Positions 3,786 through 9,907 of a stretch of 11,873 nucleotides of DNA are shown here, one piece after another (within the stretch, counting starts at the first letter, position 1; each line of letters opens with the position of its first letter). This stretch comes from Planctomycetota bacterium (GTDB taxonomy: Bacteria > Planctomycetota > Planctomycetia > Pirellulales > Pirellulaceae). The notes beneath the pieces are model-generated. The model was not told the DNA's origin and did not search any database. It was given only the letters and a program-made list of their open reading frames with translations. Location: assembly GCA_026692885.1 (NCBI GenBank), contig JAPLNJ010001158.1, positions 1-11,873 of the forward strand. The letters run 5' to 3'. A program made the position numbers and the translations under genes.

Positions 3786-5213
3786 CTAGGTATCGTAGTA
3801 CAGGCAGAACTCGTACGGGTGCGGACGGAGACGGACCGCAGCGGCCTCCTGCTCGCGCTTGTAGGCGATCCAGGTCTCGATCACGTCCTTGGTGAAGACC
3901 TCACCGCGGAGCAAGTAGTCGTGGTCCTGCGCCAGCACATCGAGCGCCTCGTCGAGCGAACCGGGCGTCTGCGGAATGTTGGCGCGCTCTTCCGGATCGA
4001 GATCGCACAAGTCCTTGTCCAGCGGCTCGCCCGGATGGATCTTGTTCTGAATGCCGTCGAGGGCCGCCATGCAAATGGCGGAGAACGCCAAGTACGGATT
4101 GCCGCTCGGGTCCGGGCAGCGGAACTCGATCCGCTTCGCCTTCGGGCTCGGGCTGACCATCGGAATGCGGCAACAGGCCGACCGATGGCGTTGCGAGTAG
4201 ACCAGATTGACCGGCGCTTCATAACCCGGCGTTTCGTAACCCGGCACCAGTCGCTTGTAGCTGTTGGTGGTGGGGTTGGTGAAGGCCAGCAGCGACCGCG
4301 CGTGCTTCAGCAGGCCGCCAATTGCGAAGATTGCCGTGTCGCTGAGGCCCGCGTAGCCGCTGCCGGCAAACAACGGCTGCCCGTCCTTCCAGATCGAAAA
4401 ATGCGTAGGCATGCCGGAGCCGTTGTCACCGAAAATCGGCTTGGGCATGAAGGTGACCGTCTTGTTGTGCTTCTTGGCCACGTTCTTTAACACGTACTTG
4501 CAGATCAACACGTTGTCGGCCATCCTCACCAACGGCGAGAACCGCAGGGCGATTTCCGACTTCCCCGCGGTGGCGACTTCGTGATGCTGAGCCTCGACCT
4601 CGATGCCGCAGTCAATCAGCGTCTGCATCATTTCGTGGCGGATGTCCAGCAACTGATCCGCCGCCGGAACCGGGCAACAACCTTCCCTGTAGCGCAGCTT
4701 CTGGCCCAGGTTAGGGTTCTCGGCTCGGCCCCGGTTCCACTCGCCTTCGATCCTGTCGATGTGGTAGTAGCCCTCGTGAGCCTTCTGGTCAAAACGTACG
4801 TCGTCGAAAATGAAGAACTCCAGTTTCGGACCGCAATACGCGGTGTCGCCAACGCCGGTGCTCCGCAGGTAGTTCACCGTCTTGCGGGCAATGTTCCGCG
4901 GGTCGCGGCTGTAATCCTCGCGCGTGATCGGATCCTGGATGTTGCAAATCATCACGAGCGTGGGCAGCGCGGTGAACGGATCCAAGAACGCCGTTTCCGG
5001 TTGCGGCAGGACGAGCAGGTCGCTCTTGTTGATCGCCTGCCAACCGCGGATACTCGATCCGTCGAAGCCCCGGCCTTCGTCAAACACATCCTCGGTGAGC
5101 GCTTTCACGGGAATGGTGAAGTGCTGCCACAACCCTGGGAAAGCCATGAACCGCAGGTCCACCGCCTTCACGTCTTTTTCGCGACACAGCTTCAATACGT
5201 CTTTCGGAGTCAA
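3786..5213 (-). CDS. glnA: Type I glutamine synthetase, with altered active-site residues
   Basis: Family reaction: ATP-dependent amidation of glutamate with ammonia in the cytoplasm. I chose the TTG at 5213 because it gives MTPKDVLKLCREKDVKAVDLRF, the usual start of this family, behind an AAGGGAG at a spacing of 9 bases. The product is 475 aa, the normal length. Kept motifs (Salmonella numbering, by motif and from memory): GFDGSS (D50), E131, HHEVATAG (H211, E212) and E220, GDNGSG (N264), KRLVPGYE (R321, E327), R339, R344, RIEFR (E357, R359), and a C-terminal HPYEFCLYYDT. Changed: GPEPE is GPKLE (E129 to K), GYFPVP is GCCPVP (Y179 to C), GSGMH is GSGMP (H269 to P), and LYDL is LCDL (adenylylation Y397 to C). 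Five residues are duplicated at the E327 flap (GYETPGYEAP). The family call is certain, but normal catalytic activity is doubtful. It is transcribed alone, divergently from the surface-protein gene. Confidence 0.93.
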   Translation of the reverse strand: MTPKDVLKLCREKDVKAVDLRFMAFPGLWQHFTIPVKALTEDVFDEGRGFDGSSIRGWQAINKSDLLVLPQPETAFLDPFTALPTLVMICNIQDPITREDYSRDPRNIARKTVNYLRSTGVGDTAYCGPKLEFFIFDDVRFDQKAHEGYYHIDRIEGEWNRGRAENPNLGQKLRYREGCCPVPAADQLLDIRHEMMQTLIDCGIEVEAQHHEVATAGKSEIALRFSPLVRMADNVLICKYVLKNVAKKHNKTVTFMPKPIFGDNGSGMPTHFSIWKDGQPLFAGSGYAGLSDTAIFAIGGLLKHARSLLAFTNPTTNSYKRLVPGYETPGYEAPVNLVYSQRHRSACCRIPMVSPSPKAKRIEFRCPDPSGNPYLAFSAICMAALDGIQNKIHPGEPLDKDLCDLDPEERANIPQTPGSLDEALDVLAQDHDYLLRGEVFTKDVIETWIAYKREQEAAAVRLRPHPYEFCLYYDT

Positions 5214-5794
5214 TGCGACAATCTCCCTTGACACAAGTACCACCAAAAGGAGCTGCTGATCGCTCCCCATGTCCCAAACACCGGTCCAATCGTCGTCCAC
5301 CCACCACACACGCTCTGCGAAGGGATGCTCCCGGCCTGTGCCTGGAATCCGCGTTACGCCGCGGAGAAACTGGTGCGTCGGGTACGCGAGTTACGCAAGA
5401 AAGGGGCCAGATGTCTGCTAAGAACCTAACCTTAACAGCCTTAAGTGATAGCAAATAAACGGTTTACGAGTCAATTTCAAAACGATTTCAAACTCCAAAA
5501 ACAGCCGAAGTTGCATGGTTTCTGAGCAAGTTACGACTATGGATCATGCAGAAACCGCCAAATGTGCCAACGACGACAGACGGCATTGATCGGAACGTCG
5601 CATGGCAGGCCGCCGGCCCGACTACGCGGGCGGCTGTGATTGAGTTAACATGGGCTGATCTTCCGCGACATCCGGAAGCGCGCCGATCTTAGCAAAGATA
5701 TGGACCTTTCGGTCCCGACATATAGTCTTAAGGATTAGGGCTGCGTTCGTACTGTAATGCCCTGAATAGATGCCTGCCTCCGTTGAGGGATCGA
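5214..5794. other. Divergent intergenic region between glnA and the FG-GAP/dockerin gene
   Basis: A 581-base gap. The part nearest glnA (5214-5400) is GC-rich leader. Positions 5411-5560 are clearly AT-rich and hold a promoter-like pair for glnA. An 8-bp inverted repeat (5517-5524 with 5549-5556) surrounds a 24-base loop. Smaller hairpins occur at 5612-5634 (one bulge) and 5702-5715 (5-bp stem, TTTC loop); the latter lies in the presumed leader of the plus-strand gene. No coding region is convincing here. Confidence 0.5.
5445..5492 (-). promoter_or_regulatory. Candidate glnA promoter with an 11-bp direct repeat
   Basis: On the minus strand, TTGACT (5469-5474) and TATCAC (5445-5450) are separated by 18 bases, a fair sigma-70-type match. 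Just upstream the octamer TTTGAAAT occurs twice (5485-5492 and 5474-5481) with a period of 11 bp, one helical turn, the second copy touching the -35 hexamer. That spacing suits a regulator or UP-like contact. The leader to the TTG start would be about 225 bases. Planctomycete promoter rules are poorly known, so this is tentative. Confidence 0.35.
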
Positions 5795-8057: not shown

Positions 8058-8232
8058 GATCCCGGTCGCGGACTTGCCGACAATCACGTCCAAGCTTAGG
8101 ATCAATAGCTCGCTTGACGCTGGGGATGCCGTCGGCAGTCCGGCAGGTTGACCGCCATAGGAAGCTCCCGACGCAGCCGTGCCGCCGGTGTCGCAGGCTT
8201 TTGTCACTAGGTTCGCGGTGGAGATTTGGACC
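8058..8232. other. Leader of the first coiled-coil gene
   Basis: These 175 bases between the repeat cluster and the ATG at 8233 show no gene. TTGAC occurs at about 8113 and 8147, but neither has a good -10 partner at the right distance. GGAG lies 9 bases before the ATG. Confidence 0.35.
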
Positions 8233-8970
8233 ATGAGAATTGAGACTCGCCAGTTGGTTACGGTGATGGCATTCCTCGGATGCATTGGCTGCGCTGTCGC
8301 AGTACTCGTTGCTGCCCAGCCGCAGCAGCCCAAAGCGAATCCCGTCGGTTCAGCCCAGAGCGCCGTAGCCCAGGCGAAGAAAGGCTTGGATGCCGCTCGC
8401 GCCGCGGTGAACAGCGCCTCGGCCCATTTGACGACCGTGACGAAGCAAGCCCACGACTTGCGGAAGAAGCTTGAAGAGGAGTACGAGACTGCCCCCGAGA
8501 TGGTGGCCGCTCGCAAGCAACTAGAACAAGACAAAGCGACGTTGGATCAGACCAAGACACCTCTGATGGAGAAACTGCACCAGCAAGCGGAGTATCAGGC
8601 GGCAATCACAACGCGGGATGACGCCAAGAAGAAGTTGAAAAGCAAGGAGTACTCCCTGGCGATACTCGACATCAAGAAGAGGGAGTCGGAGGTGATCGAA
8701 TCCAACCCGCAGGCCAAGACCGCGCTGGCCGCGCACACGGAAAGCGAGACCAAACTCCATGAGTTGGTCGAGAAACACCGGGGGACGTTGCTGCAGGACA
8801 GCCGTGTCGTGGCAGTCCGCGGGGAGATCGATAAGGCGAAAGAGGCCGTGGCCCAAGCCAAGGCAAAACTGGCGGCCGAACAAAAGAAGGTGGGCGAGGC
8901 GGAGCACAAGCTGGCTCAGGAACAGCAGAAGAATCAGCCGAAGCAGCCGACCAAAGGCAAGCGGAAGTAG
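8233..8970 (+). CDS. Exported coiled-coil protein of unknown function (paralog A)
   Basis: The ATG at 8233 has GGAG at a spacing of 9 bases and opens on a signal peptide: MRIETR, then a hydrophobic run to LVAA near residue 29. The frame extends back to 8179, but that extension would bury the signal. The product has 245 aa. Residues about 40-235 are nearly all helix-forming (Ala, Lys, Glu, Gln, Leu) with heptad-like spacing and almost no Gly or Pro, so a long coiled coil outside the cytoplasm is expected. The C-terminus is strongly basic (KQPTKGKRK). The FLGC segment is not a proper lipobox. The next gene encodes a colinear homolog: both have a PLMEKLH / PLLDELH segment and a later VAVRGEIDKAK / LASVRQSIAQAK segment. 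Family and role are not recognised; a structural or polyanion-binding role is a guess from composition. Confidence 0.8.
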   Translation: MRIETRQLVTVMAFLGCIGCAVAVLVAAQPQQPKANPVGSAQSAVAQAKKGLDAARAAVNSASAHLTTVTKQAHDLRKKLEEEYETAPEMVAARKQLEQDKATLDQTKTPLMEKLHQQAEYQAAITTRDDAKKKLKSKEYSLAILDIKKRESEVIESNPQAKTALAAHTESETKLHELVEKHRGTLLQDSRVVAVRGEIDKAKEAVAQAKAKLAAEQKKVGEAEHKLAQEQQKNQPKQPTKGKRK

Positions 8971-9004: not shown

Positions 9005-9061
9005 TAGGACGGATTGGCACTTCGGCCCGATGTTTCGGAGCCGAAGTGCCAATCCGTCCTA
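9005..9061. repeat. Long perfect palindrome between the two coiled-coil genes
   Basis: Arms 9005-9026 and 9040-9061 are perfect 22-bp inverted repeats. Inside, CCGA (9027-9030) pairs with TCGG (9035-9038) around a TGTT loop with one bulged A at 9039, giving a 26-bp stem. It starts 34 bases after the stop of the upstream gene and ends 63 bases before the next start. There is no T-run, so it is better called a palindromic repeat element than an intrinsic terminator. In RNA it could protect the upstream message or limit read-through. Confidence 0.8.
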
Positions 9062-9124
9062 CCACCGATTCGCCAGGTTTTTTCTTTACAGCCACTAACG
9101 GGGACCAAGCGAGGAGAGACGCCG

Positions 9125-9907
9125 ATGGTGGAGCGAGTTCGTGCGACTTTGTTGTTCTGCGGGTGCTTGGTGCTGGGGACCTCGGTGCTGCTGGCCGCCG
9201 ACTATCCACCCAAGTCGAAGCCCAAACCCAAGGATCCCGTGGCGCAGGCCAAGAGCCAGTTGAACGAGGCGCAGCAGCGGTTCGCTGCGGCGGTGGCTCG
9301 GCTGCGTGCCTCGACGGCCAAATTGAAGCAACTCAGTCACGACGCGCCGCTGAAGTACAAAGAAGTCGCCCAATCGCACAATTCCACGCTTGCGCTGGAG
9401 GGGACTCGCAATTCCTTCGAGCAGAGTCAAAAGGAGCTTGACGAAGCGCGCCGTCCATTGCTGGACGAACTGCATTCCCAGCCGAAGTACCGTGAAGCGG
9501 TCGCCGAACGCGAATCGCTGCGGGCCAAGCTGAAGGCCTTGCCGTTCACCTCGTCATTCGAGAGAAACGATACCGAACACCAGTTGGCCCTGGCTTATGC
9601 AAAGGTTCGGAAACTGGAGAAGGAAGCCTTGGAGACCGACCCGGATGCCAAAGCCCTGTCCGAAGCGGTCGCCGAGTCTCAGAGTTCCCTGCAGGATCTC
9701 GATCGGCAACGGGACGCCGAGATGGCTAACGATCCGACCCTGGCCAGCGTGCGGCAGAGCATCGCGCAGGCCAAGAACGAGGTGGCCAATGCCCGGGTCG
9801 CCGCCGCCGCCGAATCGCAACAGCTGGCCGCCGCCCGCCAGAAGCTGGCCGCCGAAGAAGCCAAACGCCAGAAACCCAAGTCCAAATCCAAGAAGAAACA
9901 CCGCTGA
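9125..9907 (+). CDS. Exported coiled-coil protein of unknown function (paralog B)
   Basis: The ATG at 9125 follows AGGAG at a spacing of about 10 bases and gives a signal peptide (VERVRATLLFCGCLVLGTSVLLAA, cleavage near AA/DYPP). The frame runs back to 9014, but that would include the palindrome at 9005-9061 and place 37 unlikely residues before the signal. The product has 260 aa. A short KPKPK stretch follows the signal, then about 200 residues of Ala/Glu/Gln/Lys/Arg-rich helix with coiled-coil character, then a very basic tail (KPKSKSKKKHR). It is homologous along its length to the preceding protein, with a slightly longer middle (LPFTSSFERNDTEH insert), so the pair probably arose by tandem duplication. 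The product could form fibres or hetero-oligomers with its paralog in the periplasm; no known family is recognised. Confidence 0.8.
   Translation: MVERVRATLLFCGCLVLGTSVLLAADYPPKSKPKPKDPVAQAKSQLNEAQQRFAAAVARLRASTAKLKQLSHDAPLKYKEVAQSHNSTLALEGTRNSFEQSQKELDEARRPLLDELHSQPKYREAVAERESLRAKLKALPFTSSFERNDTEHQLALAYAKVRKLEKEALETDPDAKALSEAVAESQSSLQDLDRQRDAEMANDPTLASVRQSIAQAKNEVANARVAAAAESQQLAAARQKLAAEEAKRQKPKSKSKKKHR

Follow-up and report, generated by a model that had tools for sequence, protein, structure and literature searches.

A glutamine synthetase (GS) gene of a planctomycete of the order Pirellulales has lost catalytic residues while its reading frame remains open and, to judge from its sequence, it is very probably no longer a working glutamine synthetase. 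The gene lies in contig JAPLNJ010001158.1, of which we have analysed a stretch of 11,873 nt, called the window below. It is a GS-I (glnA), found on the minus strand in positions 3786–5213. The reading which we prefer, with a confidence just short of even, is a catalytically dead GS-I in early near-neutral decay, in a cell whose glutamine would come from another GS.

The protein has 475 aa if translation starts at the TTG in 5213–5211, a position which aligns with the start of its close relative P0001, described below. Both the Pfam domains PF03951 and PF00120 and the GS-I fold are present: a model built on a diverse alignment of 55 sequences has pLDDT 86.5 and pTM 0.90, and its best structural match is a GS (TM 0.94). 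An earlier model on 34 close sequences (pLDDT 54) was discarded as too poor. We read the DNA directly and found neither a stop nor a frameshift, in agreement with the original prediction. The third-position G+C of the gene is 0.83, and that of its neighbours is 0.73–0.83. A plasmid search gave no match, which says little. Elsewhere in the window, two adjoining proteins without a Pfam match (8179–8970 and 9014–9907) are a tandem pair, with 28.6% identity over 273 aa, and a 21-base imperfect tandem repeat is found at 9806–9856. GS-I genes 50–51% identical to that of the window are also found on two IMG/VR contigs (L119, L120).

Residues are numbered as in the Salmonella GS, by alignment to 2gls. 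Three motifs are altered: GPKLE (E129K, codon AAA, 4824–4826), GCCPVP (Y179C and F180C, codons TGT TGC, 4674–4679) and GSGMP (H269P, codon CCT, 4407–4409), all on the minus strand. The codons were already given in the original prediction; they were verified in the DNA, and their assignment to E129, Y179, F180 and H269 in the alignment. According to PMC6529630 and PMC6478659 (the latter in Bacillus numbering, converted here) E129, H269 and E357 are ligands of one metal and E131, E212 and E220 of the other, and the ammonium pocket is shaped by Y179 and the E327 flap. The window protein keeps four of these six ligands: E129 and H269, which bind the n2 metal, are lost. The n1 ligands E131, E212 and E220 are intact, as had been stated, and so are E357, D50 and the arginines R321, R339, R344 and R359. 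In the ammonium site (D50, Y179, E327), D50 and E327 are intact, Y179 has become a cysteine, next to a second one in the same loop, and the flap has gained five residues through a 15-bp tandem duplication with 2.3 copies (4211–4245, minus strand; VPGYETPGYEAP). There are also Y397C (TGC, 4005–4007), at the adenylylation-site tyrosine, and E62K (AAG, 5025–5027), which adjoins the D50 loop, both on the minus strand. The list of changes in the original prediction was right as far as it went, but it did not include Y397C or the longer flap, nor the fact that ligand loss recurs in Gemmataceae. Confidence in the fold model is lowest at residues 178–180 and 326–331 of the 475, which are the cysteine pair and the longer flap. 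Five active-site loops are named in PMC9249791: the E flap, Y loop, N loop, Y179 loop and D50 loop. By our own assignment of these loops, every one of them has, in it or beside it, one or more changes at otherwise invariant sites.

Among the matches listed for some 5.8 billion proteins searched, P0001, 96% identical, was the only close relative. This sequence comes from separate NCBI and ENA contigs, the longest of 2,080 bases. Y179C, F180C, H269P, Y397C and the flap duplication are common to the window and P0001, together with Q220K, D224A and N345H (these three counted from the codon at 5219). E129 and E62 are unchanged in P0001, which keeps five of the six metal ligands: E129K and E62K are found in the window only. 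The loss of two of the three n2 ligands, as originally claimed, holds for the window but not for P0001, which lost H269 only; the common ancestor of the two had probably lost this one ligand. The presence of Y179C, F180C and H269P in a separate sequence means that they are not sequencing errors; E129K may be one, as had been suspected. A search with residues 165–360 gave no other relative between 78% and 96% identity among the best 120 of 7,999 hits. The 119 best hits other than P0001 in the first search are all canonical at E129, Y179, F180, H269 and Y397, and none has the duplication. We aligned 297 relatives, made up of 177 proteins and 120 loci in which a gene may occur more than once; among them P0001 alone has Y179C and H269P. 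Outside this set H269P is also found in one Gemmataceae gene. Within the nearest order, the codon pattern for GSGMPTH matches in 4 genomes out of 396; at these places the motif is in no reading frame longer than 100 aa.

The protein had been described as otherwise well kept, which is not entirely correct. At columns invariant in the 119 close relatives the window has 16 departures and P0001 has 15, against a median of 0 and a maximum of 4 when each of the 119 is left out in turn. The window protein and P0001 differ at 17 aligned positions, seven of them in invariant columns, which is close to the base rate of such columns (201/470). Of 11,941 differences in 407 control pairs among the relatives, 93 are in such columns, and none of the 134 pairs with 10–25 differences has more than two. 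With a wider reference set the figures are 2/14 for the window pair, 2/1,191 for canonical pairs of the phylum, 6/671 for intact and 79/3,082 for ligand-lost Gemmataceae pairs. Constraint is relaxed at formerly invariant sites in the window pair, a loss which is read from amino acids only. The departures from consensus common to both sequences hit invariant columns in only 11 of 82 cases, which suggests that constraint still acted along the greater part of the stem and ended late. The dN of the window gene to six outgroups is 0.139–0.149, as compared with 0.097–0.134 for its canonical sisters L328 and L329. A gene evolving neutrally would still be free of stops after 17 missense changes with a probability of 0.45–0.52; therefore a function cannot be deduced from the open frame.

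In the tree the window gene and P0001 belong to a supported set of six, together with P0010, L328, L329 and L098. Within this set they adjoin L098 (95/82), a placement which is unsure because the L098 branch is very long. The stem of the window pair has a length of 0.26 and the branch of the canonical P0010 one of 0.24; L328 and L329 share a length of 0.07, to which each adds 0.06. The latter two are 82% identical to P0001 and canonical at 16 of 16 sites scored, with a GS-III in both genomes. The two nearest canonical genomes (G425, G410) combine GS-I with a GS-III in which the motifs are present. Those next in similarity (G404, G523) have GS-I alone, so that a second GS in the host of the window is a guess. 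L098 (in G358) is a GS-I with R344G, N264H and Y397D, and its genome has a GS-II-like gene, L325, whose class was assigned by eye. No metal ligand is lost in 70 GS-I of the nearest order, L328 and L329 included; Y179H occurs once among them and F180A once. These genes come from a best-hit list and represent 70 of the 379 genomes in which a match was found. No metal ligand is lost either in 89 GS-I genes from phylum-wide hits, seven of which depart at other scored sites. Another GS-I, L392 (G437:C46:39338-40741), has a TAG at residue 448 of 468 and is perhaps also decaying.

Gemmataceae have GS-I genes with lost ligands too, a pattern to which a single hit (L014) led us. We searched 95 genomes and scored 84 full-length GS-I from 80 of them, fragments and GS-like sequences not being counted. 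Of these 84, 52 lack one or more of the ligands E129, E131, E212, E220 and H269, with intact frames (L135–L170, L179, L183, L185, L189, L190, L193–L197, L199, L200, L204, L207, L210, L215). E129 is replaced by S in 35, K in 6 and A in 2, and H269 by N in 6 and P in 1; Y179C is found in none of the 52. On the tree these losses have a separate origin from that of the window pair, and parsimony requires at least five changes of state, with 3 at E129, 6 at E220 and 3 at H269. Fifty of the 52 genomes gave no intact GS-I in addition to the ligand-lost one. When the ligand-lost pairs are ranked by dS, starting above 0.1, the first ten (dS 0.14–0.26) have dN/dS 0.004–0.046; these dead-looking genes are therefore retained. 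The median dN/dS is 0.18, up to 0.47, in 734 ligand-lost pairs, versus 0.147, up to 0.30, in 292 intact ones. The ligand-lost GS-I of this family may be the larger finding.

Their genomes usually have a further GS. GS-III was found in 71 genomes of the Gemmataceae search, including 49 of the 50 which have only a ligand-lost GS-I (the exception is G804); of the genomes with an intact GS-I, 16 have it and 14 lack it. By raw count this gives a Fisher p of 1e-6, which is confounded by descent; a test aware of phylogeny has three independent pairs and no power to reach significance, and we do not claim the link of ligand loss with GS-III as proven. Counting any other GS in the genome, the figures are 51 of 52 ligand-lost rows and 22 of 32 intact ones. 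In 15 Gemmataceae genomes GS-I lies directly upstream of GS-III (L171, L181, L188, L191, L194–L197, L199, L200, L202, L206, L207, L209, L215): the PF12437 match of GS-III starts 121–357 bases past GS-I on the same strand. GS-I is ligand-lost in eight of these, including all six E129K genomes. We compared 36 of 38 extracted GS-III genes, 28 of them from the Gemmataceae search; two below 600 aa were dropped. The columns EQEYFL, TRHNEVAP, NGSGKH, NDHRLGANEAPPA and GDRNRTSPFAFTGN are invariant in all 36, and are catalytic motifs; with longer literal patterns the number of matching genes was only 19–36.

How could the window gene have reached its present state? As the changes common to both show, the ancestor which it shares with P0001 had lost H269, the Y179/F180 pair and Y397, and its flap had gained five residues. 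From the known mechanism, an incomplete n2 site should no longer handle the ATP phosphates as usual. After the split, to judge from the amino acids, substitutions accumulated at formerly invariant positions at an unconstrained rate, E62K and E129K being among them. Glutamine would most likely come from another GS, perhaps a GS-III, and the gene would now most likely be decaying, at an early and near-neutral stage which has left the frame open. Several observations count against decay: the predicted fold is that of a GS, neither sequence has a broken frame, the G+C is within the range of the neighbours, the canonical P0010 is long-branched too and the damaged Gemmataceae genes are clearly retained. 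This retention makes a non-catalytic role possible for the window gene as well. It might be a pseudoenzyme, a non-catalytic dodecamer which senses nitrogen or binds a partner such as GS-III or a regulator; in Gram-positive bacteria glutamine-bound GS plays this part for GlnR. We consider this a serious possibility, though less likely than decay. It would agree with the predicted fold, with the frequency and low dN/dS of ligand-lost GS-I in Gemmataceae, where both E129K and H269P recur, and with the other GS in nearly all of those genomes. However, most intact Gemmataceae rows have another GS as well and the phylogeny-aware test is powerless, the conserved columns of the window pair show relaxed change, and none of the eight window proteins scanned with Pfam is a regulator. 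Moreover the E flap, a known regulator-binding part of GS, is altered in the window. The amino acid pattern favours a dying gene over a repurposed one; Gemmataceae demonstrate that the other fate exists. A wider proposal appears rather unlikely to us: that in planctomycetes with a second GS, GS-I has repeatedly become a non-catalytic dodecamer kept as sensor or partner, the window being a fresh independent case in Pirellulales.

Two other explanations have less in their favour. An active ligase for a larger amine, of the gamma-glutamyl-polyamine or -ethanolamine type, is improbable. Y179C and the longer flap could open the ammonium pocket, and in PauA7 and the GlnA4 model (PMC6529630) Y179 is also replaced and the flap loop is larger. 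Those enzymes, according to the same source, have all six metal ligands, with other residues in place of D50 and E327, the reverse of the window; relaxed constraint is also ill-suited to a new specific enzyme. We rejected this as the best reading because metal ligands are lost. Sequence or assembly error is hardly credible: E129K and E62K are window-only and both change Glu to Lys, but the other changes (Y179C, F180C, H269P, Y397C and the duplication) are also present in P0001, from other contigs, and error was rejected as the cause of all changes. The original suggestion of a pseudo-enzyme or early decay has gained support from the presence of most of the losses in the separate P0001 and from the relaxed constraint, decay being the reading which we prefer.

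The metal ligands of GS, an enzyme known from textbooks for its conservation, are regarded as fixed; in the lineage described here their loss is recent. Among the papers listed in searches of open-access PMC there was no report of a ligand-lost GS-I in planctomycetes. An annotation as glnA in this phylum need not imply glutamine synthesis, and the 52 Gemmataceae genes make a non-catalytic job of a full-length GS-I testable. As compared with canonical bacterial GS-I (GlnA; 2bvc, 3ng0, 2gls), the window protein has the same fold, length, domains, n1 ligands, D50, E327 and glutamate and ATP arginines; it differs by the absence of H269, E129, Y179/F180 and Y397 and by a flap five residues longer. 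PauA7 and GlnA4 (PMC6529630) resemble it in the replaced Y179 and longer flap loop; they have six metal ligands and lack D50 and E327, whereas the window shows the reverse. Lengsin, a GS-I descendant of the vertebrate lens, is inactive: like the window protein it has the GS-I fold and has given up glutamine synthesis. It has a role in the lens, whereas the relaxed constraint of the window gene suggests decay, and only P0001 was found with the same losses. A further parallel is the ligand-lost GS-I of Gemmataceae, also full-length and without E129 (S, A or K) or H269 (N or P), in genomes which mostly have GS-III too. It differs from the window gene by its separate origin, by the absence of Y179C and by strong purifying selection in its low-dS pairs.
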